The notes beneath the pieces were generated by a model that saw only the letters and a list, made by a program, of their open reading frames with translations, was not told the origin of the DNA and did not search any database. Shown here piece after piece: positions 2,038-15,634 of a stretch of DNA of 34,332 nucleotides (the stretch's first letter is position 1; every line of letters begins with the position of its first letter). Position numbers and translations under genes: made by a program. The stretch is from the NCBI GenBank assembly GCA_026989875.1, contig JALSIP010000009.1:1-34332 (forward strand), read 5' to 3'. Origin of the DNA: an archaeon. GTDB taxonomy: Archaea; Hydrothermarchaeota; Hydrothermarchaeia; Hydrothermarchaeales; BMS3B.

Positions 2038-2368
2038 TATGTAGAATTTCTGATGCGGAGATATATATAAATTTTTTGAGCAAAAAGGTACAAAAACAAT
2101 TTGAAAATATCGGCCTTATTTTAATCTGAATTGTCCAGAAAGATTGCAAAACGTTAAGTAGTATAGTTTAAGGAATAAATCCCTCCTATTGGACCTATAC
2201 CCAAACCTGTAAACCTGTATAAACCATATCCCCACGCCTTCAGTATGGCGCCATGATAGCCTGAGCCACTCAACATAACTTTCATGCTGTAAAATTATTC
2301 CTGAAAATAAAGCATAAGTACCACTCACACCCAGATTTCTGTGGGGATGATTGATGCAGGGGGTGCGC
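2038..2368. other. intergenic region at the boundary between AT-rich island and respiratory cluster
   Basis: Apart from the TATA box at 2062-2071 I see no gene here. Composition changes from AT-rich to GC-rich between about 2150 and 2350. There is a tandem 8-bp repeat AAACCTGT at 2203-2218 followed by TATAAACCATAT, which could hold a promoter reading right towards the Bat-like gene, but it is far from that start. No integrase, tRNA or attachment site is visible at the boundary. Confidence 0.4.
2062..2071 (-). promoter_or_regulatory. TATA box of the TIR-like gene
   Basis: The minus strand reads TTTATATATA about 30 bases upstream of the ATG at 2037. This spacing puts the predicted transcription start at or within a few bases of the start codon, and no Shine-Dalgarno sequence is visible, so the mRNA is probably leaderless or nearly so. 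Confidence 0.6.
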
Positions 2369-3019
2369 ATGGACGATAACGGAGAGTTTCTGCGGGTTCT
2401 GCTGAGCATAGAATCTGAAGGCTGCGTCATCCACAGGCTTGCTGCCAGGCATCCCTGGGTTGAATTCAGGGTGGCAGAGAGGCACGTTCTCCCTGGCGGC
2501 GGAATGCTTGCAGGCATGGTTGTGCGGAGCGGTGAGGCTGTGCGGGAGTTTCTCGGTGAGCTTGCTGCCTGTGATGAGGTCAGGTTTCTTCAGCCTGTTT
2601 ACATTGCTGGCGGGTATCTCAGGCTCAGGCTGGAATTCAAGTGCGATTCCTGCGTGGTATGCAGAATAGCTGAGATGCTGCGCATCCCTCCAGAAGAAAT
2701 CTCGTGCAGCAATGGCAGAGTCGCAGCGGCGTTTATACTGAAGAACGGCGAAGAGCTGCGCACCATGGTGGCGCACCTGCGGGAGATGAGAGCAAACTTC
2801 AGGGTGCTTGAAGTCAGACGCGGATGCTTTAGCCCCCGGGAAGTGCAGCTCACCGATAGGCAGCTTGAGATTCTCAGGTATGCATACCGTGCGGGATACT
2901 TTGACCGTGACAGGAGAGTCAACCTGCAGCACATCGCCAGGCACTTCGGTCTGAGCCCTGCCACCATCGGCGTGCACATGAGGAGCGCCATCAAAAAGAT
3001 ACTTAAAAGGGTGATATAA
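2369..3019 (+). CDS. Bat-type (HTH_10) transcriptional regulator
   Basis: The last 55 or so residues of this 216-residue protein, LTDRQLEILRYAYRAGYFD followed by LQHIARHFGLSPATIGVHM, form the helix-turn-helix typical of bacterio-opsin activator (Bat/HTH_10, PF04967) proteins of archaea. The N-terminal 160 residues resemble the ligand or redox-sensing half found in short family members and contain a C-x2-C-x2-C cluster (CDSCVVC). I place the start at ATG 2369, six bases after CAGGGGG, rather than the in-frame TTG 2351 or ATG 2354. The gene ends nine bases before the heme O synthase gene, so the two are likely co-transcribed. Family members include oxygen- and light-responsive activators. Control of the oxidase cluster is inferred from position, and redox sensing through the Cys residues is a guess. 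Confidence 0.82.
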   Translation: MDDNGEFLRVLLSIESEGCVIHRLAARHPWVEFRVAERHVLPGGGMLAGMVVRSGEAVREFLGELAACDEVRFLQPVYIAGGYLRLRLEFKCDSCVVCRIAEMLRIPPEEISCSNGRVAAAFILKNGEELRTMVAHLREMRANFRVLEVRRGCFSPREVQLTDRQLEILRYAYRAGYFDRDRRVNLQHIARHFGLSPATIGVHMRSAIKKILKRVI

Positions 3020-3028
3020 GGTGAGGAC

Positions 3029-3883
3029 ATGAGAGAGTACCTGGGGATGTTCAAGCTCCGCATAGTTGCCCTGCTCGTGTTCGTCGCTATGGTGGCTGCA
3101 GCGGTTGGCTCGGGGGGCAGCCTCCAGGTTGAGCGGCTGCTACTGCTTTTTGCAGCAGGTGCTCTTGCATCAATGGGAGCAAGCGTGCTGAACCACTATT
3201 TTGACCGGGACATAGACGCGCTTGTCCCCAGAACCAGCAACAGACCACTTCCCTCAGGCAGGATTAAGCCCAGCACCGCATGCTGGCTCGGTGTTTTGCT
3301 GGTGGGTACCTCTCTGCTCCTGTCATCACGCCTGAACTACCTCACCACCATGTACATACTTGCTGGAGCGCTGGTTTACGTTCTGGTTTATACTGTGTGG
3401 CTCAAAAGGCGCAGCGCCCTGAACATAGTCATAGGGGGTCTCGCCGGTAGCTGTGCCGTACTTGCTGGATATGCGGCAATCCGTGGCGACACCACCCTGC
3501 TCGCCCTGCTGCTTGCCCTTCTGATATTCCTGTGGACTCCGCCCCACTTCTGGGCATTTGCCATAGCCAAGAGCTCTGACTACACCAGAGCTGGAGTGCC
3601 CATGCTGCCGGTGAAGTACGGGAATGACAGAGCAGCAAAGCTGATAGTCATGCACACCGTGCTGCTGGTTCAGGCGTCCCTGCTGCTCTACGCCTTCGGC
3701 TACTTCGGCGGATTGTATCTGGTGGTGGCGGTTGTTCTGGGGGTTTTGCTGCTGGCTTTCAATCTGAAGCTGCTCGCCACCAGAAGCACAGGCTGGGCAT
3801 GGAGAAGCTACAGGTTCTCAGGTATATATCTTATAGTCCTGTTCACAGCCATACTGCTGGATGCACTATTTAAACAGGCTTAA
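3029..3883 (+). CDS. ctaB: heme O synthase (protoheme IX farnesyltransferase)
   Basis: This 284-residue membrane protein belongs to the UbiA prenyltransferase superfamily and has the CtaB/CyoE signatures: the first Asp-rich motif NHYFDRDIDALVPRTSNRPL (55-74), TPPHFWAFAI in the middle, and DYTRAGVPMLPVKYG. Eight to nine hydrophobic segments are visible. It adds a farnesyl chain to heme b to give heme O, the high-spin heme (or heme A precursor) of heme-copper oxidases. No ctaA (heme A synthase) is nearby, so the final heme could be O-type or an As/Os-type heme. The start has a good GGTGAGG ribosome site. Linkage to the subunit genes from 3929 onward supports a dedicated role in maturing that enzyme. 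Confidence 0.95.
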   Translation: MREYLGMFKLRIVALLVFVAMVAAAVGSGGSLQVERLLLLFAAGALASMGASVLNHYFDRDIDALVPRTSNRPLPSGRIKPSTACWLGVLLVGTSLLLSSRLNYLTTMYILAGALVYVLVYTVWLKRRSALNIVIGGLAGSCAVLAGYAAIRGDTTLLALLLALLIFLWTPPHFWAFAIAKSSDYTRAGVPMLPVKYGNDRAAKLIVMHTVLLVQASLLLYAFGYFGGLYLVVAVVLGVLLLAFNLKLLATRSTGWAWRSYRFSGIYLIVLFTAILLDALFKQA

Positions 3884-3928: not shown

Positions 3929-4078
3929 ATGGTGGCTGATGGGGGTAATGAGGAAATTCCTTTCATGCAGAGGTTTCTGGACAACATGTGGTTGCTGCTG
4001 ATTCTGAGTTTTGCCATACTTGCGGTGTCCTACGTGGGATGGGGAATTCTGGAAGCACTTAACGTTCCCAGCAGGTGA
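3929..4078 (+). CDS. small single-span membrane protein of the oxidase cluster (49 aa)
   Basis: This 49-codon frame has a polar N-terminus (MVADGGNEEIPFMQRFLDN), one hydrophobic segment (about 20-40, MWLLLILSFAILAVSYVGWG) and a short tail. It ends 13 bases before the subunit II ATG, and GAAGGAGGTG between the two serves that next gene. Position and topology fit a small accessory subunit or assembly peptide. I find no named family. An AT-rich stretch at 3884-3910 upstream may contain a weak promoter. In-frame ATG codons downstream (for example the one encoding M13) could also start translation. Confidence 0.65.
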   Translation: MVADGGNEEIPFMQRFLDNMWLLLILSFAILAVSYVGWGILEALNVPSR

Positions 4079-4091
4079 AGGAGGTGCCGGG

Positions 4092-4622
4092 ATGAGTGTC
4101 GCTCCCCCTCAGGGTGTGTGGTGGAAGGAGAGGACGCCCAGGGAGGAGAAGCTCTGGGTTGCCATAGCCTTGGTGTGGGCGATTGTGATGTTTGTGATGA
4201 TGCCCCTGTGGCACATCTACGGCAAGCAGAACCCCTCCACAGAGACCTACAGGGTTTCACCGGAAGAATATGTGAGACTCACCCAGGAGTTCATAGAGAA
4301 GTATAAGGTGGGTGAGGAGAATGGCGTTCCCGTTGTGGAGCCGCCGCCGGGGAGCGATGTGTACCTGCTGGGCAGGCAGTTCAGCTGGGAGCCCATAATC
4401 AGGCTCAAAAAGGGTGAAACTTATCGCTTACACCTATCCTCGGCTGATGTGCTCCACGGCTTCTCGGTCTATCCAATGAACATCAACTTCATGGTGATAC
4501 CCGGCTACGACTACGTGCTCACCGTGACGCCAACCCAGGCGGGAGTTTACAGCGTGGTGTGCAACGAGTACTGCGGGTTGGGGCACCAGGTAATGGTTGG
4601 AAAGATTATAGTGGTGGAGTGA
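4092..4622 (+). CDS. coxB: heme-copper oxidase subunit II with CuA centre
   Basis: The 176-residue protein has one N-terminal membrane anchor (about 20-42, LWVAIALVWAIVMFVMMPLW) and a C-terminal cupredoxin domain. The CuA ligands are all visible: His in DVLHGFSV, then VCNEYCGLGHQVM giving Cys-x3-Cys-x3-His-x2-Met. A single anchor and a short cupredoxin domain are typical of B-type (ba3) enzymes. It should take electrons from a soluble donor on the outer face and pass them to subunit I. I chose ATG 4092, preceded by GGAGGTGCCGGG, over an upstream in-frame opening at 4011 that overlaps the small membrane gene. A functional CuA argues that the donor is a cytochrome c or cupredoxin, but none is encoded here. 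Confidence 0.93.
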   Translation: MSVAPPQGVWWKERTPREEKLWVAIALVWAIVMFVMMPLWHIYGKQNPSTETYRVSPEEYVRLTQEFIEKYKVGEENGVPVVEPPPGSDVYLLGRQFSWEPIIRLKKGETYRLHLSSADVLHGFSVYPMNINFMVIPGYDYVLTVTPTQAGVYSVVCNEYCGLGHQVMVGKIIVVE

Positions 4623-4631
4623 GGTGACGAT

Positions 4632-6146
4632 ATGAGCGATGATTTCAGGACCTGCCCTGTGACGGGATTTAAGGTGCATCTGCCTGCTGAGAGGCTCATC
4701 AAGGTCAACGCAGTTACGGCGGTGGTGGCGCTTCTTGTGGGGGCGATTATGGCGCTCTTAGTGGCGCTCACCAGGTGGGAGACCGTGCACCTGCTGCGCC
4801 CCTTAGACTACTACAAGTTCTTAACCCTGCACGGCTGGAACATGCTGGGATTCTGGATAATATTCTTTGAGGTGGCAGTGCTCTACTTCGCCGGCGCTAT
4901 AATGCTCAACTCCCGTCTTGCCTCGCCGAAGCTCGGCTGGCTGGCGTATGCGCTCATGCTGGTGGGTGCTGCTGGCACTAACATTACTGTTCTCATGAAT
5001 CCAGCGAAGAACGCGATAATGTTCACCTCCTACGTGCCTCTGAAGGCAACCCCCGGCTACTACCTCTCGGTAATCCTCTTCGCCGTTGGCGCACTGCTTG
5101 CGGTTTTCAACTTCCTGGCGACGCTGTACATTGCCAGGAAGGAGAGGACCTACCGGGGCTCTCTTCCCTTAGTGGTCTTCGGCGCCCTGACGGCGGCAAT
5201 AATAGCGGTGAGCACCCTGCTCTTCGGCGCCGCTGCGCTGGTTCCCACCCTCTTCTGGTCCATGGGCATATCCCCCACCTGGGATGCACTAACCTACAGG
5301 ATAGTCTTCTGGGCTTTCGGGCACCCCTCGCAGCAGATAAACGTGGCGGCAATGATAGCAATCTGGTACCTGCTCGCCTACCTCACCGTAGGGGGCACGA
5401 CGATAAGCGAGAAGTTCTCCCGTCTTGCGTTTCTCTTCTACATCCTCTTCATCAACATCGCCTCGGCGCACCACCTGCTGGTTGACCCTGGCGTAAGCTC
5501 CGCCTGGAAGATATGGAACACCAGCTATGCCATGTACTTAGCGGTGCTTGCGAGCATGATGCACGCTTTTGCTGTGCCTGCGGCGATAGAGGTGGCGCAG
5601 CGCAGGAAGGGCTTCAACCGCGGCTTATTTGAATGGCTGTGGAAGGCACCCTGGAAGAACCCCTCCTTCTCGGCGCTCATCCTCTCAATAGTAATCTTTG
5701 GCTTCCTGGGCGGGATAAGCGGCGTGATTCAGGGCACGGAGCAGCTCAACATAAGGTTCCACAACACCCTTGCGGTGCCCGGCCACTTCCACGGCACAGT
5801 CGCAGGTGGCACAACTCTGGCGTTCATGGGCATAACCTACTACGTGCTTCCGCTGATATTCAGGCGCGAGGTTGTGGGCAAGAGCCTGGCGGTGTACCAG
5901 CCCTGGATATTCGGCATAGGCATAGCTCTGGTCTCCATAGGCATGCAGGGCGCTGGTCTATACGGTGTGCCCAGGAGGCATGCGGACATAACCAGCTTCG
6001 GCGGCTCCGTCTTTGCCTTTGACTACGACCCCACCGCCTACTTCTGGCTTTCCCTGCTGGGCATTGGCGGCATCCTCGCCTTCACCGGAGCGCTGCTATT
6101 CGTTCTAATAGCTGTTGCCACGCTGATTAAGGGAAGGAGGCTCTGA
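4632..6146 (+). CDS. coxA: heme-copper oxidase/NO reductase superfamily subunit I, lacking the cross-linked Tyr
   Basis: A 504-residue protein with about 13 membrane spans. Heme and copper ligands are present: His67 (LTLHGWN) and His387 for the low-spin heme, His385 (PGHFHG) for the high-spin heme, His231 (FGHP) and His280-His281 (SAHHLL) for CuB. In oxygen-reducing A and B types the residue four after the first CuB His is a Tyr covalently linked to it (H-P-x-V-Y). Here the sequence is H-P-S-Q-Q, so residue 235 is Gln. Loss of this Tyr is a hallmark of NO reductases and of NOR families proposed to derive from B-type oxidases. It could therefore reduce NO rather than O2; this is inference. GAGGTGA precedes the ATG, and the stop lies two bases before the subunit IIa-like gene. 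Confidence 0.9.
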   Translation: MSDDFRTCPVTGFKVHLPAERLIKVNAVTAVVALLVGAIMALLVALTRWETVHLLRPLDYYKFLTLHGWNMLGFWIIFFEVAVLYFAGAIMLNSRLASPKLGWLAYALMLVGAAGTNITVLMNPAKNAIMFTSYVPLKATPGYYLSVILFAVGALLAVFNFLATLYIARKERTYRGSLPLVVFGALTAAIIAVSTLLFGAAALVPTLFWSMGISPTWDALTYRIVFWAFGHPSQQINVAAMIAIWYLLAYLTVGGTTISEKFSRLAFLFYILFINIASAHHLLVDPGVSSAWKIWNTSYAMYLAVLASMMHAFAVPAAIEVAQRRKGFNRGLFEWLWKAPWKNPSFSALILSIVIFGFLGGISGVIQGTEQLNIRFHNTLAVPGHFHGTVAGGTTLAFMGITYYVLPLIFRREVVGKSLAVYQPWIFGIGIALVSIGMQGAGLYGVPRRHADITSFGGSVFAFDYDPTAYFWLSLLGIGGILAFTGALLFVLIAVATLIKGRRL

Positions 6147-6148
6147 AG

Positions 6149-6268
6149 ATGGAGGAAGAGGTAAGACCGAAGGGCACTCTCGCGCTGGTGCTGCTCTTCT
6201 TCGTGGTGTTTGTGCTCTTCTACGTGGTCAACTGGATATGGCTCAGCGGTGTATGGGTGCTGAGGTAG
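6149..6268 (+). CDS. ba3-type oxidase subunit IIa-like peptide (39 aa)
   Basis: A 39-codon gene starting MEEEVRPKGTLALVLL with a single hydrophobic helix. It closely resembles in length and pattern the 34-residue subunit IIa of Thermus thermophilus ba3 oxidase, which also begins with M-E-E, a Lys-Pro/Pro-Lys-Gly turn and one membrane helix and replaces part of the second helix missing from subunit II. The ATG is two bases after the subunit I stop, and AAGGGAAGGAGG lies before it. It is too short for most gene callers. Its presence supports the view that the neighbouring subunit I is of B type in architecture, even though the active site is altered. Confidence 0.8.
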   Translation: MEEEVRPKGTLALVLLFFVVFVLFYVVNWIWLSGVWVLR

Positions 6269-6281
6269 CGGAGGAGCAGAG

Positions 6282-7541
6282 TTGAACAGCGCCCACCTCC
6301 ACCGCTGGCTCCTCTTTTCTGTTTTTTCACTTGTTTTTGCCGGCGTCTTTGCCTTCTTCGCCGCCATGGCGCGCACCCCTGCGGTCAGGCTCTTCCCTGT
6401 GGAGGAGCTCTTCAGGGTAGCGCTGGTGGTGCACGTTATCTTCGCCGTTGTCATCTGGTTTCTGGGCTTCAAGGCAGTGCTCTGGTGCTACTGCGCTGCC
6501 GGAAGGGGCTCAGCTGTCAGCCGCCTGTGGAGCTATGGACTGTATGCCGCCATCGCCGGTATGCTCATGGTGGCAGCCTCACCGCTCTTCAGCGCCAGGC
6601 CTCTGCTCATAGACTACATCCCTCTGCTGCTGCACCCCCTCTACTTCGGAGGGCTCATTCTCATTGCCCTGGGAATGAGCGCCGTTGCCCTGGCATACAT
6701 AAAGCACTCTACGGGTGTGAAGCTTGACCTGCCCTCCTACACGATGCTGCTTGCAGCCTTCGTGCTCTTCGTGACCTTCCTCAGCTTCTTCTCCTCCGCC
6801 TTTATCAACGGCACCGACTACCGCGCCCTCGTCTGGGGTCCGGGGCACATCTTCCAGGTAGCGAGCACCTTAGCGATGGCTGCTGCCTGGTTTATCCTGC
6901 TGCGGGAAACCCTGGGCAGGGACCTGGACTCCCCGCCGGTGAGGAGGCTTCTCCTCCTCTACCTTGCGGTGGCAATGCTCATGCCGGGCATCTACTTCTT
7001 CCCCCGCTCTGAGCAGTTCTGGCTGTTCACCCGGGCGATGATGTACGGGATAGCTCTTCCGAGCGTCTTCGTGGGGCTTCTGGTGCTCAGAGCCCTGGCG
7101 GAGCAGCCATCGCTGGAGCTGCGCAACCCTGAGGTGGCATCCTTAGTGTATTCCTCAGTTCTCTTCGGCACCGGCGGTGCCATGGGTTTCTTTGCCACGA
7201 GTGCTGACCTGCGCGTTCCGGCTCACTACCACGGTGTGCTCGGCGCGGTAACCCTCGCCTTTATGGGTGCCACCTACCTGCTCCTGAGGAAGCTGGACAT
7301 ACCCTACAGCCGCCGTGCTGCCATGCTCCAGCCCCACCTCTACGGAGCGGGTCTGCTGCTTATAATCTCAGGCCTCTTCTGGGCTGGGATGCAGAGCGCC
7401 CCTCGCAAGACGGTTGAGTATGCGGACTCTGCCACCAGACTTGCCATGAACCTCATGGGACTCGGCTCTGTTGTGGCGGTGGTGGGCGGCGCCGCCTTCG
7501 TGGGCGTTGTGCTCCTGGCGCTGCTCAGGGCTGGCAGGTGA
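6282..7541 (+). CDS. second, divergent heme-copper subunit I homologue lacking the CuB His pair
   Basis: The 419-residue protein has about 12 membrane spans. It aligns with subunit I at several points: His51 (VVHVIF) and His317 suit a low-spin heme, His315 (PAHYHG) a high-spin heme, and WGPGHIFQVAS (185-195) matches WAFGHPSQQIN around the first CuB His (His189). About 49 residues later, where the His-His CuB pair should be, the sequence reads YFFPRSEQFW with no His. CuB is therefore probably absent or replaced. The start is TTG 6282 behind GGAGG. The last 17 bases overlap the convergent ferredoxin gene. It may be a second subunit in one complex, an electron-transfer paralogue or a separate reductase; the sequence does not decide. 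Confidence 0.8.
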   Translation: MNSAHLHRWLLFSVFSLVFAGVFAFFAAMARTPAVRLFPVEELFRVALVVHVIFAVVIWFLGFKAVLWCYCAAGRGSAVSRLWSYGLYAAIAGMLMVAASPLFSARPLLIDYIPLLLHPLYFGGLILIALGMSAVALAYIKHSTGVKLDLPSYTMLLAAFVLFVTFLSFFSSAFINGTDYRALVWGPGHIFQVASTLAMAAAWFILLRETLGRDLDSPPVRRLLLLYLAVAMLMPGIYFFPRSEQFWLFTRAMMYGIALPSVFVGLLVLRALAEQPSLELRNPEVASLVYSSVLFGTGGAMGFFATSADLRVPAHYHGVLGAVTLAFMGATYLLLRKLDIPYSRRAAMLQPHLYGAGLLLIISGLFWAGMQSAPRKTVEYADSATRLAMNLMGLGSVVAVVGGAAFVGVVLLALLRAGR

Positions 7542-7878
7542 AGTTTATCGCATCCATGGGGCAGGCGTCTATGCAGGCTCTGCAGGGCTTCTCCGCATCG
7601 GGGTTTCTAACCCTCTCGCACCTGTTCATGTCCACCTCTACTGCAACACCCTCCCCTATGCGCATCACCATCCCCTCACCGCTTTCCCCCTTACCCCCTC
7701 CCACACCGCCCCTGAGGGCGTTCACGGGGCATGCAACCACGCAGTTGCCGCAGCCGTTGCACAGCTCTTCCAGCACCACCATCTTTATCCTCCTCTCCCC
7801 CCGCAGCACGGGCAGCAGCTTCAGGAGGAGCAGCAGGAAGAAGGCGGACAGCAGCAGGGCTACCGGCGTGGCATCCAT
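7525..7878 (-). CDS. membrane-anchored ferredoxin-type protein, two [4Fe-4S] clusters
   Basis: The 117-residue protein starts with one hydrophobic helix (about 5-25, PVALLLSAFFLLLLLKLLPVL) followed by a basic stretch, so the rest should be cytoplasmic. Two cluster motifs follow: CNGCGNCVVACP, and a second set with the first Cys in MNRCERV and then CRACIDACP near the C-terminus. A Gly-rich loop separates them. The ATG is immediately after the stop of the cytochrome b fusion (no gap), so the two genes form one operon and probably one complex. Its 3' end overlaps the end of the second subunit I gene by 17 bases. Confidence 0.85.
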   Translation of the reverse strand: MDATPVALLLSAFFLLLLLKLLPVLRGERRIKMVVLEELCNGCGNCVVACPVNALRGGVGGGKGESGEGMVMRIGEGVAVEVDMNRCERVRNPDAEKPCRACIDACPMDAINFTCQP

Positions 7879-9771
7879 TTACCCATCACCCAGGTGGAAC
7901 CTGCCCTTCTCAAATTTCAGGATGACCACCCTGCTCCTTTCAAACCTCACCCTCTCCACCAGTCTGTACCTGAATTCACCCTCCGCAGAGTCCCTTATTC
8001 TGACCTCTAAGGTGTGCTCTCCCGGCTCAACTTCTATTCTCTCGTAGGCATAGCTGGGCCCATCCCTCCACAGCCCCGAGGGCTGATAGCTCTTCCTGAG
8101 CACAGTTCTGCCATCTATCGCTAACACCACCTCCACTGGGGAGCGCTCCCTGGGGCAGGGAGTCAGGTTGCCAGCTCTGAGCTCCTCCACAGTTGGCTCC
8201 CTGCAGGGCACCAGCCGCTCCCCCGGGTGGCTCATGGTGAAGAGGAGCATCGCTTTATCTGCCTGCATCAGGGAGTAGGCGGGGGATGTGGAGAAGTAGC
8301 TCAGAGGTAGCGTGAAGAGGAGCAGCAGCATAAGTATGAGGTGCGGTGCTGGCTTCTCCCTGTCACACTTTCCTTCCTCCAGAGCGGATATGAGTTTCTT
8401 TTCTTCACCCGGCATTAGCCAGCACAACCTCACCCGACCCGCTTCAGGATGCTTCAGCACGGGAGCTCGTCTTCCAGATAGCCTGTCCTCTGTCCATAGG
8501 TTACCGAAGCGGTACCTGCAGTCTCCGTGTTTGCATCCCGCGATGACGAGCTTATTCACACCAGCATCAAGGGCATCCGCAACAGCCAAGGGATGAAGCA
8601 TCCCAATGCAGCGCAGGCTGAGCACCTTCACATTACTCTGCATGAGTCTGTCTGCTGCCTTACCACCCAGGCAGTGCCTGCAGATGACCACCAGAGTCTT
8701 ATCCCTCTCAGCCAGCGATTTTACCTCTTTCCTGAGCAATTCAAGCTCCGTATCTCCAAACTCTACAGCGTTGAAACTGCAGGAGCCGACGCATATCCCG
8801 CAGCCTGCACATCTGCTCCCTGATACGCTGGCGACCTTCTTTTCGCCATCTTTAAGCATACTTATAGCACCGTACGGACAGTCAGCATAACACAGCTCAC
8901 ATCCGGTGCAGGTTTCTCTACGAATTCTGGCGCTGAGCCATTCTTTCTGAAGTAGCCTGGGCACCGCAAGCAGGAATGCGGTGATGGCTATCAGCAGGAG
9001 CCAGCTCAGGCGTGGATGGCTCTGCATCAGCGGCAGGGGTAGCATGTAATACCAGTCCACAGGCACTTTGACCGGGATATCGTATGGCGTGGCTGGTGGA
9101 GCGCTGATTGCTGGCTTGAGCAGCGATAGGGTCAGCAGCACCGCCAGAAGCAGCACTGCAACACGCTCCGGTGGAAGCAACCTGACGCCGGATAGTCTGG
9201 AGAAATGAAGCAGCAGAAGTACTGATGAGAACAGGGGGAGTGCAAGATGAGTGAAAACCACCGCAAAGAAAAGCAGACTGGTCAGACTTTCTTCACCGGC
9301 AACCGACATGGCGAGGGGTTTTGGAAATACCGGGAGCTCATCCAGAAATTCAGTTATGCCAAGCGCCACAAGCTGCGCACGCTGATCCCACACCATCCAG
9401 TAGCCTGTGAGACCCTCTATCAGTACAGCACCAAATAAAAGAACCCCCGAGACCCACACCAGCCACCTGCTCTGCAGCAGCCTCCTGGTTATGAGGGTTC
9501 TGATACCGTGAAGAATAAGAACAATTATGAGGGCATCTGCAGAATACCTGTGAATACTGCGCATAATCCCGGCTATACGGTCTTCAGTTATATTATTTAC
9601 AGAGATGTATGCGTTCTGCGCGTTTATACTGTAAAAAGGCAGCACGTAAATGCCGCTAATTGCGGTTAACAGCAGCAGGAATATGGCAATCTGCCCCAGA
9701 TGCATAAAGGGGTTGTATCTGGATGTGAAGGCACGGTTTACCAGCAGCTCCATTCTGGAAAACAGGGTCAT
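7879..9771 (-). CDS. cytochrome b - 2[4Fe-4S] ferredoxin - MvhD-like fusion membrane protein
   Basis: Domains in order over 630 residues: a cytochrome b part (1-270) with two His pairs, His74/His88 and His175/His189, each spaced as in bc-complex cytochrome b, and PVDWYY (237-242) in the place of the PEWY quinol-site motif; a ferredoxin with C-x2-C-x2-C-x3-C at 288-298 and 321-331; an MvhD/FlpD-type [2Fe-2S] domain (about 360-455; Cys364, 367, 388, 413, 418; AGCKHGDCRYRFGN); one more membrane span (about 477-493); and a C-terminal beta-rich domain, probably outside. MvhD normally passes electrons between hydrogenase or dehydrogenase and heterodisulfide reductase. Such a fusion could connect a cytoplasmic flavin/FeS partner to a quinone pool. 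A Rieske protein is not encoded. The start ATG 9771 is supported by the N-terminal amphipathic helix; ATG 9753 is also possible. Confidence 0.85.
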   Translation of the reverse strand: MTLFSRMELLVNRAFTSRYNPFMHLGQIAIFLLLLTAISGIYVLPFYSINAQNAYISVNNITEDRIAGIMRSIHRYSADALIIVLILHGIRTLITRRLLQSRWLVWVSGVLLFGAVLIEGLTGYWMVWDQRAQLVALGITEFLDELPVFPKPLAMSVAGEESLTSLLFFAVVFTHLALPLFSSVLLLLHFSRLSGVRLLPPERVAVLLLAVLLTLSLLKPAISAPPATPYDIPVKVPVDWYYMLPLPLMQSHPRLSWLLLIAITAFLLAVPRLLQKEWLSARIRRETCTGCELCYADCPYGAISMLKDGEKKVASVSGSRCAGCGICVGSCSFNAVEFGDTELELLRKEVKSLAERDKTLVVICRHCLGGKAADRLMQSNVKVLSLRCIGMLHPLAVADALDAGVNKLVIAGCKHGDCRYRFGNLWTEDRLSGRRAPVLKHPEAGRVRLCWLMPGEEKKLISALEEGKCDREKPAPHLILMLLLLFTLPLSYFSTSPAYSLMQADKAMLLFTMSHPGERLVPCREPTVEELRAGNLTPCPRERSPVEVVLAIDGRTVLRKSYQPSGLWRDGPSYAYERIEVEPGEHTLEVRIRDSAEGEFRYRLVERVRFERSRVVILKFEKGRFHLGDG

Positions 9772-10069: not shown

Positions 10070-10108
10070 AGTCCCGGAGGCAGTACGGGAAGGTTGGAGG
10101 TGAAAGCT

Positions 10109-12604
10109 GTGGTAGTGTTGAGACGGATTTCGGAGTCCGTTAAGGACTACGACACCATCAGGTACACCACCTGCGACAACATGTGCGAGAGCGGCTGTGG
10201 AATGAAGGTGTACCTGAAGGATGGCAGAATAGTTGACATCTGGGGTGACGATGAGCACCCGCAGAACTACGGCTCCCTTTGCCCGAAGGGAACCGCAAAC
10301 TACCAGCATGTGTACAACCCCCTCAGGGCAAAATACCCCGTGATCAGGGAGGACAACGTTAACGGGAAGTTCAGGCGTGTAACCTGGGATGATGCGCTTG
10401 ACTTTGTTGCCGAGCGCCTGAAGTACATACGTGAGAAGTGGGGTGCCCACACCGTAGCCTGCCACCGCACAGGAAGGAGCAGCTACGGTAACAAGCTGGG
10501 TGGCTCCAGGTTCCTTGCCATGTACGGCACGCCCAACATCTACGGCCAGGGACCGCTCTGCTGCGAGTCCCCCGGAGCGAGGGGTCAGTACGTATTCGGT
10601 GCCAAGGAGTTTCTCCGCTTGATGAACCCCTGTCAGGATGCGATGAACAGCGACACCGTGTTCATCGCAGGTGCAAATGCAGCGGCGCTGGAAGTAATCA
10701 CCATGAAGTGGTTCATAGAGGCGCAGGAGCGCAATGGCGCCAAGATGATAGTCATAGACCCGCGCTTCAATGCCACGATGGCAAAGGCAGACCTGGCGCT
10801 GCGCCTCAGACCAACCACCGACGCCTACCTGGCGAACTCCTTGGCGCACGTGCTCATCTACGAGATAGATGGCATAGACAAGGAGTTCATAGCCAAGTGG
10901 ACGGTTGGCTTTGACAAGTATGCAGAGCTTGTCAAGGACTACACCCCTGAGAAGGCTGAGAACATCACCTGGGTTCCGGCTGAGGACATACGCAAGGCAG
11001 CCGAGTGGATAGCCTATCCCAGGAGGACGCACTTCACGGGCTGCTTAGGTACCGCGCAGCAGTACAATGCCGGCAACGGCAATGCCGCCTACCAGATACT
11101 GGTGGCGATCACAGGAAACGTGGGTGTTAAGGGTGGTGGCTGGAACTGGCTGCACAACTGCAGACCTGTGCTGAGCGCCGGCAAGGACCTGAAGGAGTAC
11201 GTGGCTAAGATAAAGGAGCCGCAGCTCTCTGACAAGATCATACCCTGGGGCGACACCTCAAGCGCCTGCACCATAAATCCTGGATACACCGGCAAGCCCT
11301 ACCCGGTGAAGGGGCTGATATGGAACGGCAACCACATAGTGCAGTGGCCCAACAACAACAAGGTGAGGGAGTACATGAAGAACCTGTACTGCGGTGTGCA
11401 CCTGAGCTTCCATCCCAACGAGACCATGAGCTGGATGCATGCAGCATTTCCGATAACCAGCTTCTTTGAGCACGAGGGCGTGGTGCACCACGGCAACAAC
11501 CGCCACGTGCAGTGGCACAACCAGATTATTGAGAGGCAGTGGGAGTGCAGGGCAGACATAGACTTCTGGGCAGGTCTGGCGAAGCGCTTTGAGTTCGCCG
11601 AGGCTTACTATGCGCCCGACGGTAAGAGCTGGTGGGCGAAGAAGGACGTCTTCGGCAACCCGCTGCCCGAGGACCCGAAGTACCCCGGCACCACCCACGA
11701 GATTGATGAGCGTGTCTGCCAGAACTGGTTCCACTCCCAGGAGCCCTTTGTGGCTGGCATAACCGCCGACCTCATGGACCCGGAGATGTCCCCCAAGGGC
11801 GGTGTGATGTGGCCTGCTGAAACCAAGGACGAGGCTATGATGTACTCCGACCCCGAGGCGACCATAAGAGGTGCCCAGTGGATAATGTACAAGGAGGGCG
11901 TCAACTACCCCGGCACCGACAAGCGCTTCCCCACACCCAGCGGCAAGGTGGAGATATACAGCAGGGCGCTGGAGCAGATAGGCTGGTATCCCATGCCCAT
12001 ACACATAGAGCCCAACAACGCACCAGTTGCGAGACCAGACCTGTGGGAGAAGTACCCGCTCATCCTGTGCACGGGTCGCTTGGTTGCGCACTTCCACGAG
12101 ATGGGTCACTGGTGGCCCTGGATGGTTGAGCTGGAGCCCCACAGATTCATCAACATCCACACCGACTTAGCCAAGGAGCTGGGCATACGCGACGGCGACA
12201 CCGTGGTCTGCGAGAACGACTACGGCAAGGTCATAGGTCCCGCCTGGGTCAATGAGATGGTTGACGTAGCCGAGGTCTGGGGACCAGAGGGCTTTGACAA
12301 GTACCAGCCCTTCTATCCCTACAGCAACATTAACGAGCTCGTGGATGACACCGTGAAGGACCCCTTCTACACGCAGGCGCAGTACAAGTGCAACCTCGTG
12401 CGTGTGTATCGCCTGGGCGATGACCCGGATAAGGCTGTGGAGAAGACCAAGGAGTTCTTAGCTAAGCACAAGCGCACACCCAAGGACTACCTGGACCCGG
12501 AGAAGGAGCCGAGCGTCAACCTGGGTACCTACACCAGACTCACCCAGGAGGGCAGCGGCATCTACTACGTAGGGGTGCCGCGTGAGAAGTGGGAGACCAA
12601 GTGA
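10109..12604 (+). CDS. molybdopterin oxidoreductase catalytic subunit (DMSO reductase superfamily)
   Basis: The 831-residue protein binds one [4Fe-4S] cluster near the N-terminus (Cys22, 26, 30 and 58: TCDNMCESGC then SLCPKG) and the bis-molybdopterin-guanine-dinucleotide cofactor (IDPRFNATMAKAD; the C-terminal PSGKVEIYS and LILCTGR region). A Cys pair in GPLCCESPGARG lies where many family members have the molybdenum ligand, which would place it nearer polysulfide/thiosulfate-reductase-like enzymes than Ser-ligated DMSO reductases. The substrate cannot be named. There is no Tat signal and no membrane partner, so it is probably cytoplasmic. I chose GTG 10109, five bases after GGAGGTGA, though the frame opens at TTG 10094. 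The two ferredoxin subunits and the TorD chaperone follow in the same operon. Confidence 0.88.
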   Translation: MVVLRRISESVKDYDTIRYTTCDNMCESGCGMKVYLKDGRIVDIWGDDEHPQNYGSLCPKGTANYQHVYNPLRAKYPVIREDNVNGKFRRVTWDDALDFVAERLKYIREKWGAHTVACHRTGRSSYGNKLGGSRFLAMYGTPNIYGQGPLCCESPGARGQYVFGAKEFLRLMNPCQDAMNSDTVFIAGANAAALEVITMKWFIEAQERNGAKMIVIDPRFNATMAKADLALRLRPTTDAYLANSLAHVLIYEIDGIDKEFIAKWTVGFDKYAELVKDYTPEKAENITWVPAEDIRKAAEWIAYPRRTHFTGCLGTAQQYNAGNGNAAYQILVAITGNVGVKGGGWNWLHNCRPVLSAGKDLKEYVAKIKEPQLSDKIIPWGDTSSACTINPGYTGKPYPVKGLIWNGNHIVQWPNNNKVREYMKNLYCGVHLSFHPNETMSWMHAAFPITSFFEHEGVVHHGNNRHVQWHNQIIERQWECRADIDFWAGLAKRFEFAEAYYAPDGKSWWAKKDVFGNPLPEDPKYPGTTHEIDERVCQNWFHSQEPFVAGITADLMDPEMSPKGGVMWPAETKDEAMMYSDPEATIRGAQWIMYKEGVNYPGTDKRFPTPSGKVEIYSRALEQIGWYPMPIHIEPNNAPVARPDLWEKYPLILCTGRLVAHFHEMGHWWPWMVELEPHRFINIHTDLAKELGIRDGDTVVCENDYGKVIGPAWVNEMVDVAEVWGPEGFDKYQPFYPYSNINELVDDTVKDPFYTQAQYKCNLVRVYRLGDDPDKAVEKTKEFLAKHKRTPKDYLDPEKEPSVNLGTYTRLTQEGSGIYYVGVPREKWETK

Positions 12605-12614
12605 GGTGGTGGAG

Positions 12615-13400
12615 ATGGATGAGGTCTTCTCAGACAAGGGCTACTGCCTCAACCTGGACCAGGAGACAGCACGCTCTGCCATGGAGCGCATAGAGAAGAT
12701 CGGGCTCAGAGAGGCGCAGGCTGCCAGTGTCTGGGGTATACCCCCAGACCACATTGCCATGTTCGTTGACCTGAAGCGCTGCATAGGCTGCTTCGCCTGC
12801 GAGACTGCCTGCAAGCTTGAGCATGACGACCCCATGGGTCCACGAAGGATGCGCGTGATTCAGGTGGGACCGAAGAAGGTGGGCAGGCACACCAAGGCGA
12901 TGTACATACCCATGAACTGCTTCATGTGCGGTCACGCCGCCTGCGTTGAGGCATGCCCCACCGGGGCGATGACCAAGCGCTCCAAGGACGGCATAGTGTT
13001 TGTGGACAGCGAGAAGTGCATAGGCTGCAAGCGCTGCATGCAGGCGTGCCCCTTCGGCGCACCACAGTACGACTCAAGGACGGGCAAGGTTATAAAGTGC
13101 GACTACTGCATGCACCGCATTGACCAGGGGCTGCAGCCTGCCTGCGTGACCAAGTGCTCCACTCACGCCCTCTACATCGGCAACCCTGCTGACATAATGA
13201 CCTACTTCCGTGAGAAAGACGCCATACGTCTGGCAAGAGTTTACTTTGACGACAGGGCAGACACCGACCTGCTGACCTCACCTGCCTACGCATTCCCGGA
13301 GCGGGCGCTCTTCATACCCAGAGTGCGCCTGAAGCCTGGCAAGCTTCCGGAGCGTGTCACAGAGGTTACAAAGCCCGTCTACAAGAAGGAGCAGCAGTAG
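12615..13400 (+). CDS. four-cluster [4Fe-4S] electron-transfer subunit 1 of the molybdoenzyme
   Basis: A 261-residue DmsB/PsrB/NrfC-type protein with sixteen ligand Cys in four sets: 56-59-62-66, 102-105-110-114, 135-138-141-145 and 162-165-177-181. An N-terminal extension of about 50 residues with no Cys-rich motif precedes the first cluster. It should carry electrons to or from the catalytic subunit encoded ten bases upstream. The ATG at 12615 follows GAGGTGGTGGAG. Residues about 121-157 are encoded by a 112-nt segment that is identical to the paralogue at 13693. No signal peptide is present, as for the catalytic subunit. With two such subunits in one operon the enzyme may form either a long FeS chain or two alternative complexes. 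Confidence 0.9.
   Translation: MDEVFSDKGYCLNLDQETARSAMERIEKIGLREAQAASVWGIPPDHIAMFVDLKRCIGCFACETACKLEHDDPMGPRRMRVIQVGPKKVGRHTKAMYIPMNCFMCGHAACVEACPTGAMTKRSKDGIVFVDSEKCIGCKRCMQACPFGAPQYDSRTGKVIKCDYCMHRIDQGLQPACVTKCSTHALYIGNPADIMTYFREKDAIRLARVYFDDRADTDLLTSPAYAFPERALFIPRVRLKPGKLPERVTEVTKPVYKKEQQ
12975..13086 (+). repeat. 112-nt identical patch, copy 1
   Basis: This segment is base-for-base identical to 13981-14092 in the paralogous ferredoxin gene, although flanking parts of the two genes have diverged in both sequence and synonymous positions. It spans the third cluster motif (CIGCKRCMQACP). Confidence 0.9.
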
Positions 13401-13414
13401 GGGCTCATCCCCCT
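13399..13414 (+). other. short stem-loop after the first ferredoxin gene
   Basis: AGGGG-CTCAT-CCCCT forms a five-base-pair stem right after the stop codon, followed by a T-rich stretch (CCCTTTTGATTTTTC) and then the AGGAGG of the next gene. It could reduce read-through or protect the upstream mRNA end; the operon clearly continues after it. Confidence 0.35.
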
Positions 13415-13443
13415 ACCCTTTTGATTTTTCAGGAGGATAAGAG

Positions 13444-13677
13444 GTGGCAAAGCCCAAGGGTTACCGGGGAGAGCTTGATGATGCTCTCAGGCAGGCGCTT
13501 GAGGGCGTGGTGCCTGAAAATCTTAAAAAGAGAGTCATGAAGAATCCTGACTGGATTTATGTGCTCACGATTATCAGGGAGATGAGAGCCCGTGAGCTCG
13601 GCAGCTACTACTTCGGCAGCGATGTTATGGTTTCTCCATGCTGCCCCATGCCAGAGCGTCTGGGCTATGAGGATTAA
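13444..13677 (+). CDS. small conserved-position protein of unknown function in the molybdoenzyme operon (77 aa)
   Basis: The frame starts at GTG 13444, seven bases after AGGAGG, and encodes a soluble, partly helical protein (LDDALRQALEGVVPENLKKR; DWIYVLTIIREMRARELGS) that ends with a Cys pair (VSPCCPMPERLGYED). I do not recognise the family. It lies between two ferredoxin subunit genes and has its own strong ribosome site, so it is very likely translated. Possible roles are a small structural subunit or an assembly factor for a metal centre (because of the C-C near the C-terminus), but neither is shown by sequence. Confidence 0.75.
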   Translation: MAKPKGYRGELDDALRQALEGVVPENLKKRVMKNPDWIYVLTIIREMRARELGSYYFGSDVMVSPCCPMPERLGYED

Positions 13678-13692
13678 CAGGAGGTCCTGGAA

Positions 13693-14505
13693 ATGCAGGT
13701 TCAGATATCTGAGCCCTTCAGGGAGGATGTGGTGCTGAAGGAGCCAAGGGACGGGGATGTGGTCATGCTCATTGACCTGAAGCGCTGCATAGGCTGCTTC
13801 TCCTGCGAAACCTCCTGCAAGCTGGAGCACGAGCTCGGCATGGGTCCCAGGCTGATAAGGGTGATTCAGGTGGGACCCAGGGAGGTGAGGGGCAGGATCA
13901 GAACCCTCTACATACCCATGCCCTGCTTCCACTGCTCACCAGCCGCCTGCGTTGAGGCATGCCCCACGGGAGCGATGCAGAAGCGCTCCAAGGACGGCAT
14001 AGTGTTTGTGGACAGCGAGAAGTGCATAGGCTGCAAGCGCTGCATGCAGGCGTGCCCCTTCGGCGCACCACAGTACGACTCAAGGACGGGCAGGGTTGTG
14101 AAGTGCAACTTCTGCATGCAGCGGGTTGACTACCGCAGAACCTACACCCGTGAGGAGCTTGAGAAGATATACCGGCACGTGCCCCAGAAGAGAATCTACC
14201 TGCCTGTTCATGACGAGGTGGGCAACATAAAGCGGGACAGCAAGGGCAGGCTGGTGGATGAGAAGGGTGAGCCGCTCTCCGGAAGAAAGCTCGCCGAGGC
14301 TGGTGAGATGCCAGAAAGCCTGAGCTACTCGGGGCTGTGGAGCGCCTGCGCCACCAAGTGCTCCACCGAGGCTATGACCTTCGGCTACTACAGGGACGTC
14401 AAAAAGCTCATAGAGCAGAAGGCAGAGAACAGGCAGATACACCGGGTGGGCAGCGTCTTCTATGCCCTGCCCCCTGAGGACTTTCCGCTTCCGCGCTCCA
14501 AGTAG
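13693..14505 (+). CDS. four-cluster [4Fe-4S] electron-transfer subunit 2 of the molybdoenzyme
   Basis: A 270-residue paralogue of the 12615 gene product. Ligand Cys sets are 32-35-38-42, 78-81-86-90, 111-114-117-121 and 138-141-219-223. The loop between the second and third Cys of the last set is 77 residues long (11 in the paralogue) and contains a charged hairpin-like stretch (HDEVGNIKRDSKGRLVDEKG). The N-terminal extension of the paralogue is missing. The ATG at 13693 follows CAGGAGGTCC. The long insert may shape a docking surface for a different partner. With no NrfD/PsrC-type membrane gene near, the electron donor or acceptor is probably soluble, such as ferredoxin, or the cytochrome b-ferredoxin-MvhD membrane protein encoded divergently upstream. 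Confidence 0.9.
   Translation: MQVQISEPFREDVVLKEPRDGDVVMLIDLKRCIGCFSCETSCKLEHELGMGPRLIRVIQVGPREVRGRIRTLYIPMPCFHCSPAACVEACPTGAMQKRSKDGIVFVDSEKCIGCKRCMQACPFGAPQYDSRTGRVVKCNFCMQRVDYRRTYTREELEKIYRHVPQKRIYLPVHDEVGNIKRDSKGRLVDEKGEPLSGRKLAEAGEMPESLSYSGLWSACATKCSTEAMTFGYYRDVKKLIEQKAENRQIHRVGSVFYALPPEDFPLPRSK
13981..14092 (+). repeat. 112-nt identical patch, copy 2
   Basis: Identical to 12975-13086. A second shorter shared block (GCCTGCGTTGAGGCATGCCC) lies just upstream of both copies. The pattern fits recent gene conversion between the two ferredoxin genes better than simple conservation. Confidence 0.9.
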
Positions 14506-14517
14506 CGCGGACCTACA

Positions 14518-14540
14518 GTTTTATTTTCAATTGTTTCCTT
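14518..14540 (+). terminator. T-rich stretch, possible terminator and/or TATA element before the chaperone gene
   Basis: GTTTTATTTTCAATTGTTTCC follows the second ferredoxin stop. Archaeal termination often uses such T-runs. The GTTTTATTTT part could equally serve as a TATA box for the chaperone-nurA-herA genes, predicting a start near 14548 and a short leader before TTG 14567. Confidence 0.35.
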
Positions 14541-14566
14541 AAAGCATCTGAGTAGAGGTGTTCAGC

Positions 14567-15634
14567 TTGCCGGAGTCTTCGGTGTTTGAGGAGAACAGGT
14601 ATGTTAAGTGGTTCATAGACCCTGAGCTGGCAAAGGACTGGAAGAACCTGCTAAAGAAGTACCCCTATCTCTTCTGGATACAGTCAATGAACGTGCGTGA
14701 CAGGAAGCAGTGGGCGGTGCTGGTGAGGAAGTACTCACCCGAGCTGCGCCCGCCGGTGAAGGTGCACGGAGCTGAGAGCTATGCCGAGCTCAGCGTTGCC
14801 AGAAGAGATGCCTGGTTCCAGCTTTTCAGATGCCTCACCGAGGTGTCCCTGAACCTTGTCAGGGAGTTTCAGAGCGGTGAGTTCGCGGATAAGCTGAGAT
14901 GCAGCTTCGGCAGGCTGCTTGGAGAGAGGGAGGTGGAGACGTACCTGGAGCAGCTTGAGCGTGTTAGGCTGGAATTTGAACACCTCCGTGCCGAGAAGCT
15001 GCAGCGGGAGCTTGAGGCAGAGCGCTTCACCATATTTGACGATGACCTGATGCCGTACCTGTCAGCCCACGAGTCGGTGTACAGGAGTGAGAAGCAGCTC
15101 ATGGGCGACCTGACAGCGCAGGTTAAGGAGCTTTACCGGCGTGCCGGCTATGTGGTTGACAAGTCCAGAGGGAACCTGCCCCCGGATGAGGCAAAGCTTG
15201 AGGTGGAGTTTGCATATCGCCTGATAGAGGATGAGATTCAGGCGTGGAGAAGGGGGGAGAATGAGAGAGCCATGGAGCTTCTTCAGCTTCAGAGGGAGTT
15301 CATCCAGCAGCACGCTGCGCTCTGGCTTCCCTACATGTTCGCAGACCTGGCAAGCAGGGAGTTCAGAATAGGGATAGCCAGGAAGTACCACGGGGATGTG
15401 CGGGATGAGGAGCTCTACGCCCGTGAGGGTGCGGTGGTGGAGATGGACTTTCTTCAGGTTATAGCGGGGCTGGGCAGGATGCTGGTGGAGCAGGAGTACC
15501 TGCAGGTTGAGGAGATGCTGCAGGCTGCAGGCAAGATTTCTGCAGGGGAGCTTGCAGCCGCCTTCAGCGGGGTTGTGCCGCTCCCGACTGCGGGCGAAAA
15601 CACCTACCTGCTGAGGGCAGGGCAAAATGCTTGA
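14567..15634 (+). CDS. TorD/DmsD-family chaperone for the molybdoenzyme
   Basis: The C-terminal two-thirds of this 355-residue, all-helical protein has the TorD (redox enzyme maturation protein) pattern: MPYLSAHESVYRSEKQLMGD, PPDEAKLEVEFAYRLIEDE and HAALWLPYMFADLA. Such chaperones bind the apo-catalytic subunit and hold it for cofactor insertion. At the N-terminus it has an extra segment of about 150 residues (FIDPELAKDWKNLLKKYP...), making it longer than the usual 200 residues. The start is probably TTG 14567, six bases after GAGGTG; an in-frame GTG at 14558 is the alternative. Its stop overlaps the nurA start by eight bases (ATGCTTGA), an unexpected coupling of a redox chaperone to DNA-repair genes. 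Confidence 0.82.
   Translation: MPESSVFEENRYVKWFIDPELAKDWKNLLKKYPYLFWIQSMNVRDRKQWAVLVRKYSPELRPPVKVHGAESYAELSVARRDAWFQLFRCLTEVSLNLVREFQSGEFADKLRCSFGRLLGEREVETYLEQLERVRLEFEHLRAEKLQRELEAERFTIFDDDLMPYLSAHESVYRSEKQLMGDLTAQVKELYRRAGYVVDKSRGNLPPDEAKLEVEFAYRLIEDEIQAWRRGENERAMELLQLQREFIQQHAALWLPYMFADLASREFRIGIARKYHGDVRDEELYAREGAVVEMDFLQVIAGLGRMLVEQEYLQVEEMLQAAGKISAGELAAAFSGVVPLPTAGENTYLLRAGQNA

Follow-up and report, generated by a model that had tools for sequence, protein, structure and literature searches.

A copper-free paralogue of heme-copper oxidase subunit I in an archaeal eNOR operon is a candidate heme-handling maturation factor

We analyzed a 34,332-nucleotide stretch of archaeal DNA (contig JALSIP010000009.1 of assembly GCA_026989875.1), here called the window, in which two paralogues of heme-copper oxidase subunit I are encoded in one operon. 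The first, eI, has the features of the catalytic subunit of the eNOR family; the second, IB, lacks the CuB site. Our preferred reading, held at somewhat better than even confidence, is that the operon encodes an eNOR together with its maturation proteins, and that IB, descended from a subunit I but free of copper, has a part in handling or inserting heme and is not one of two halves of the respiratory enzyme. The genes of the operon are as follows.

3029..3883, + strand: CtaB, heme O synthase (TIGR01473, 263 bits; cut-off 210)
3929..4078, + strand: p49, small one-helix eNOR peptide 5' of the CuA gene, without a Pfam or NCBIfam name
4092..4622, + strand: CuA-bearing subunit II (Pfam COX2; the sequence has CNEYCGLGHQVM and DVLHGF)
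4632..6146, + strand: eI, eNOR-type catalytic subunit I (Pfam COX1, 231.6 bits; CuB His and heme ligands; Tyr replaced by Gln235)
6149..6268, + strand: p39, the C-terminal helix of eNOR subunit I as a gene of its own (the p39 profile matches eI C-termini)
6282..7541, + strand: IB, CuB-less subunit I paralogue, proposed heme-handling/maturation factor (Pfam COX1, 53.6 bits; AlphaFold2 model, conservation and genomic context)

IB begins with a TTG start codon and exceeds the Pfam COX1 cut-off of 34.8 bits. Its AlphaFold model (pLDDT 93.2, pTM 0.93) superimposes on many subunits I with Z scores of 33–36 over 393–413 residues, at 11–22% identity in the structure alignment. In an alignment of 129 distinct IB sequences plus a reference (130 rows), H315, Y316, H317, R375 and K376 are invariant (130/130), H51 is present in all 126 filled rows, and H189 and Q192 are found in 128 of 129 filled rows. 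The CuB pair of helix VII, His-His, appears in 0 of the 130 rows, as the initial annotation had read from the window protein. As a family, IB also does not keep the active-site Tyr or Gln: the fourth residue after the helix VI His is Phe in 44 of 54 proteins, Val in 6, Tyr in 2, Ile in 1 and Leu in 1. IB resembles subunit I of the heme-copper oxidases, both B-type (e.g., Thermus ba3) and A-type, in its whole fold and its low- and high-spin heme ligands, but differs from them in the missing three-histidine CuB/FeB site, of which one histidine (H189) is kept alongside all of the heme histidines, and in being ∼80 residues shorter than eI. The conserved residues would form two heme pockets (one with H51 and H317, the other with H315 and the distal H189) with the propionate Arg/Lys and no CuB, and IB is probably a diheme, copper-free protein.

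IB is a family of its own that carries no name and has the full oxidase fold. When an alignment of archaeal IB proteins was run against 84,980 species genomes, 41 loci came up, spread over archaea, Betaproteobacteria, Aquificota, Nitrospirota, Anaerolineales and others, and the known range now takes in Archaea, Aquificota, Pseudomonadota (57 of 398 genomes sampled), Nitrospirota, Chloroflexota and Myxococcota. The family is monophyletic (SH-aLRT 100) and lies on the eNOR/B-type side of the tree. Its deepest branches are linked to eNOR, and a nested clade (98) unites the IBs from A-type oxidase and ctaA-ctaB loci; long branches leave the details of this tree unsure, and a second tree was made with FastTree only. 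NCBIfam names no such family: the window protein has no match, and a set of five IB proteins gave just one match, to a TPR region. A search of plasmids gave no match. Decay to a pseudogene was considered and ruled out, as the residues are conserved across domains of life and stops are seen in few copies, all in other genomes.

The genes that surround IB are mostly those that make heme O and heme A or attach heme. We counted 77 distinct IB genes whose 4-kb flanks are complete on both sides. For 49 of them, ctaA and/or ctaB is no more than 4 kb away; resB/ccsA is as close to 8, and neither set of genes is as close to the other 20, although ctaB lies 4.1–5.8 kb from 9 of these. No subunit I match occurs within 9 kb of 35 of the 77. 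Nineteen of the 77 are within 4 kb of ctaA/ctaB yet have no subunit I match within 9 kb, a linkage to heme genes that is independent of an oxidase. These locus percentages are not free of bias, because sampling was guided in part by IB or eI, least so in the Burkholderiales, which were chosen by eI first, and the Aquificota, which were covered as a whole phylum. Neighbors were labeled by phmmer/hmmsearch with few seed proteins, and labels were checked with Pfam for ten proteins (including seven IB neighbors and one additional ctaA) and for ten more from loci L165 and L166. Open reading frames (ORFs) were called mechanically, and those from GC-rich genomes frequently start too early.

Several lineages show the same association in different forms. 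The Aquificota order is COX3-Sco-CuA-COX1-CtaA-CtaB-IB-DUF420, or just CtaA-CtaB-IB; in Hydrogenobacter (G395) and Thermocrinis (G396), ctaA-ctaB-IB is on one contig and the sole catalytic COX1 is on another. The eNOR clusters of Burkholderiales read p49-CuA-eI(+helix)-CtaB-Sco-cytochrome b/FeS genes-IB, with CtaA often beside IB or at the opposite end. In other Pseudomonadota, IB adjoins or diverges from CtaA and an oxidase gene is absent nearby, as checked with Pfam. IB is also found at loci where an A-type aa3 enzyme is the sole recognized oxidase, and at cytochrome c maturation loci. At 13 loci of the latter kind (L165, L166, L202–L204, L206–L212 and L225), a multiheme cytochrome and ResB-CcsA are followed by an IB that is mostly at least 530 residues long, with a TPR fusion in both cases checked with Pfam. 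At L166, IB is followed by an ABC ATPase, CcmB, CcmC, CcmE, CcmF and a redoxin.

The distribution of IB across whole genomes is in line with these neighborhoods. In 136 Aquificota genomes, IB is present in 55 and CtaA in 53; 53 have both, 2 have IB only, none has CtaA only and 81 have neither (Fisher p 7e-36, uncorrected for kinship). In the two genomes with IB and no CtaA, the contig that carries IB measures 3.2 kb in one and 3.4 kb in the other. This co-occurrence ties IB to the heme A enzymes and not to a mechanism, since an aa3 oxidase would itself track CtaA in the same way. SURF1 scored above the cut-off in 0 of the 136 genomes. In the Burkholderiales, eNOR occurs in 33 of 399 genomes, and 31 of the 33 have IB, on the same contig at a distance of 1.8–9.0 kb in 28 and split over contigs in 3. 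The two that lack IB are G849, in which the cluster runs off the contig, and G922, which has none on its 30.5-kb contig.

These observations suggest that IB acts on heme, because, where its flanks are complete, it is found mostly beside genes that make heme O or A or attach heme, because two widely differing oxidase classes and cytochrome c are served, and because a subunit I-like protein would be able to hold hemes without carrying out binuclear-site chemistry. A role in acting on heme is the least strained account of all these contexts. In the scheme that we propose, IB would take heme O or heme A on its release from CtaB or CtaA, hold it or poise its redox state inside the subunit I-like fold, and pass it on to the nascent catalytic subunit. 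Contacts of IB with CtaB, CtaA or eI would be expected. The TPR-fused paralogue may do a similar job beside ResB/CcsA in cytochrome c maturation.

Several observations weigh against this proposal. Gene order fits an accessory subunit as well, and for 8 of the 77 IB genes there is no heme gene and no subunit I in the vicinity. IB comes straight after eI in four eNOR loci of Aquificota, without CtaA or CtaB nearby. IB is present in 0 of 20 tested Burkholderiales genomes without eNOR (of 366 such genomes); IB thus follows eNOR in this order and does not act there as a factor for heme A in general. CtaA was not found in the genome of the window, so that IB must have some client besides heme A. Two genomes of the eNOR type, G922 and G384 (a Tyr variant), have no IB; G384 carries the sole strong eI relative in archaea beyond the Hydrothermarchaeota. 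Finally, p49, which is presumably a subunit, diverges almost as fast as IB in Burkholderiales.

The initial annotation had proposed that the two large subunits may form one complex, for instance a heterodimer in which IB delivers electrons or protons to eI. Much of what it read from the DNA holds. The ORF coordinates bear out the order p49-CuA-eI-p39-IB with gaps of 2–13 bases, and the full order is on one contig in 4 of the 6 Hydrothermarchaeota genomes that have IB; the contigs of the other two start inside eI and continue with p39-IB. Joint expression of eI and IB is likely, as they are co-directional, 135 nt apart with p39 alone between them, and together in all six. Adjacent, co-directional pairs also occur in Anaerolineales (L046) and in the four Aquificota eNOR loci, and the near-constant presence of IB in Burkholderiales eNOR genomes, its retained heme ligands, the deep branching of eNOR-linked IBs and a tie that is tightest at eNOR loci can all be taken to favor a heterodimer. 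The expectation that the two genes are kept together, however, fails outside the phylum: of the 55 Aquificota genomes with IB, it is beside the eNOR subunit I in 6, and it is elsewhere in 13 of the 19 that we counted as eNOR-bearing (a count that reflects our reading of weaker, longer frames, seven being confirmed in retrieved loci); the two genes are kilobases apart in Burkholderiales, and the 35 genes without a nearby subunit I match have already been described. Many eNOR loci thus have IB unlinked or absent, the nested IB clade goes with A-type oxidases, and TPR-fused IBs belong to cytochrome c maturation loci. The sequences of the PDB contain no IB-family chain, the profile matching B-type catalytic subunits I only.

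Rates of divergence also separate IB from the catalytic core. The median pairwise identities (in percent) are, in Hydrothermarchaeota (4 loci), eI 87, p39 87, CuA 81, CtaB 70, p49 70, ferredoxin 61, IB 60 and cytochrome b/FeS 52; in Aquificota eNOR loci (4), eI 94, CuA 89, p49 88, IB 65 and Sco 64; and in Burkholderiales (13), eI 89, CuA 85, CtaB 81 (10 loci), p49 74, IB 73, Sco 64, cytochrome b/FeS 63 and CtaA 46, the CtaA values being depressed by over-long ORFs. IB is much less conserved than eI and CuA, and its divergence resembles that of maturation and peripheral genes. Because of distribution, divergence rates and genomic context, the heterodimer is set back as the default reading: a single complex in which IB feeds eI is not supported by them, and we consider it unlikely and less probable than a role in maturation.

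Less likely still is that IB is a membrane redox enzyme, similar to a quinol-heme oxidoreductase, that keeps heme (or CtaA/CcsA) reduced without carrying it. The two heme pockets, with their invariant or near-invariant distal His and Gln, would suit such an enzyme, as would the position of IB next to CtaA, CtaB or ResB/CcsA and its presence in both archaea and bacteria; against it, the window genome has IB but no CtaA was found there, and CtaA could not be the sole client. That IB is a sensor or scavenger of NO or O2 tied to respiratory and heme gene clusters is highly improbable: a CuB-less heme site could bind NO and IB is present in eNOR clusters, but it is most strongly associated with the synthesis and attachment of heme, and no output domain was seen save the TPR of one subfamily.

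The sequence identifies the catalytic unit as an eNOR. The CuB histidines H231, H280 and H281 and the heme ligands H67, H385 and H387 of eI are all present, and helix VI reads GH231-PSQ-Q235, with Gln in the position of the active-site Tyr, a substitution that had been recognized at the outset. Twenty-four of 26 eI proteins have Gln at this position and two (L046 and L141) have Tyr. As described in the available text of PMC8756737, an eNOR is recognized by Gln in the Tyr position, intact CuB histidines and a cupredoxin subunit II gene directly upstream, and the CuA gene of the window ends 9 nt 5' of eI. On these three grounds the catalytic unit is assigned to eNOR as a new member of a known family, and is predicted to reduce NO to N2O. 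As a further common element, p49 precedes CuA in the eNOR loci of Hydrothermarchaeota, Aquificota and Burkholderiales.

The small peptide downstream of eI, initially called subunit IIa-like, is by sequence comparison the C-terminal helix of eNOR subunit I. A profile of p39 finds its match at the C-terminal end of 39 of the 44 eI proteins examined, at about residues 525–650 (38 with i-Evalues ≤1.4e-7, and G384 with 0.002), which rules out a separate small subunit such as the IIa of ba3-type oxidases. The helix is fused in most of the bacterial homologues examined, whereas Hydrothermarchaeota encode it as a gene of its own 2–13 nt 3' of eI, a difference from the described eNORs. Two variations in eI are seen elsewhere. 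In L046 and L141, where Tyr takes the place of Gln, a Gln is retained one residue earlier; this preceding Gln is otherwise found in eI and IB, and not in the A-type COX1 proteins compared, and these two eI proteins are possible intermediates between oxidases and eNOR. In the Aquificota eNOR subunits I (L121–L127), Lys replaces the latter His of His-Phe-His in helix X, a ligand of the low-spin heme, in 7 of 7 (GHFKG), which predicts an unusual His/Lys heme.

The operon starts at ctaB, 45 nt 5' of p49 and thus further upstream than first described, and the gaps from ctaB through p49, CuA, eI and p39 to IB are 45, 13, 9, 2 and 13 nt. ctaB has the same position in relatives whose contig extends that far, and the regulator gene before it is retained in L025/L035, L027/L037, L034 and L151. 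Three further genes flank the operon.

2351..3019, + strand: HTH_10 regulator, probable regulator of the operon (Pfam HTH_10, 2.2e-18)
7525..7878, − strand: ferredoxin-like protein, small, 2x[4Fe-4S], its gene converging on IB (Pfam Fer4; kept in 5 of 5 relatives)
7879..9771, − strand: cytochrome b/2x[4Fe-4S]/FlpD fusion, which may be the electron-input module for the eNOR cluster (Pfam Cytochrome_B, Fer4 and FlpD)

The ferredoxin gene overlaps the end of IB by 17 nt. Hydrothermarchaeota, Burkholderiales and Aquificota all have relatives of the cytochrome b fusion in eNOR clusters, three of the Aquificota clusters being without IB, and this protein is a better candidate than IB for the electron donor. 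Beyond it, at 10094–15634 on the + strand, the window encodes a molybdopterin oxidoreductase of the DMSO-reductase family with two [4Fe-4S] subunits and a TorD/NarJ-like chaperone, for which no NCBIfam equivalog scored above the cut-off.

The host is a metagenome-assembled genome of Candidatus Hydrothermarchaeota (1.44 Mb, 99.96% complete). IB is carried by 6 of 23 genomes of the phylum; a seventh match, in G020, proved closer to catalytic subunit I. As stated in the accessible part of PMC6759336, cox genes in one Hydrothermarchaeota subgroup were set aside as possible contamination. Contamination is unlikely here: genes for NurA, HerA, a Drg-type GTPase, PyrI and GTP cyclohydrolase folE2 lie on the contig of the window, and the cluster is common to six genomes. 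In G006, a member of another genus (L023), IB is 94% and the ferredoxin 90% identical to those of the window, as against merely 64% for the cytochrome b/FeS protein; in three of the four remaining relatives, IB is 68–72% identical to that of the window. The G006 values hint at local gene exchange. Contigs C104, C51, C25 and C42 of genome G000 (L029–L032) also encode two subunits I, one ba3-like and the other CcoN-like with a cytochrome c gene after it; two more COX1-profile proteins on these contigs may, as a guess, be NnrS-like.

Known maturation systems offer partial parallels. IB-family genes occur among ctaA, ctaB, sco and DUF420, a point of likeness to oxidase maturation factors such as SURF1, CtaM/DUF420, Sco and CtaG; CtaM is a DUF420 protein required for oxidase activity, and in the available text of PMC9145763, the source of this, none of these factors is described as an oxidase-fold protein. 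The TPR-fused paralogues are encoded straight after ResB-CcsA, but unlike ResB-CcsA and CcmC/CcmF they lack the Pfam cytochrome c assembly domain and have COX1 plus TPR instead. The eNOR descriptions in the available text of PMC8756737 do not mention IB. Subscription papers aside, the literature searched, including the available text of PMC8756737, PMC8239418, PMC9145763, PMC12808453, PMC3879981, PMC3512248, PMC6759336 and PMC8114936, does not mention any subunit I paralogue that lacks CuB and lies next to ctaA/ctaB.

A wider claim, to which we give slightly less than even confidence, is that with IB begins a branch of the heme-copper superfamily, widespread and so far without a name, that gave up catalysis for the role of a membrane heme chaperone, was recruited again, as a TPR fusion, into cytochrome c maturation, and fills the place of SURF1 where that factor is lacking, as in Aquificota. 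For surveys of genomes, the practical consequence is that a Pfam COX1 match next to ctaA/ctaB should not be taken for a terminal oxidase or NO reductase. The route of heme O and heme A from CtaB and CtaA into subunit I is poorly understood outside organisms that have SURF1, and IB is a concrete and testable candidate for a protein on this route.

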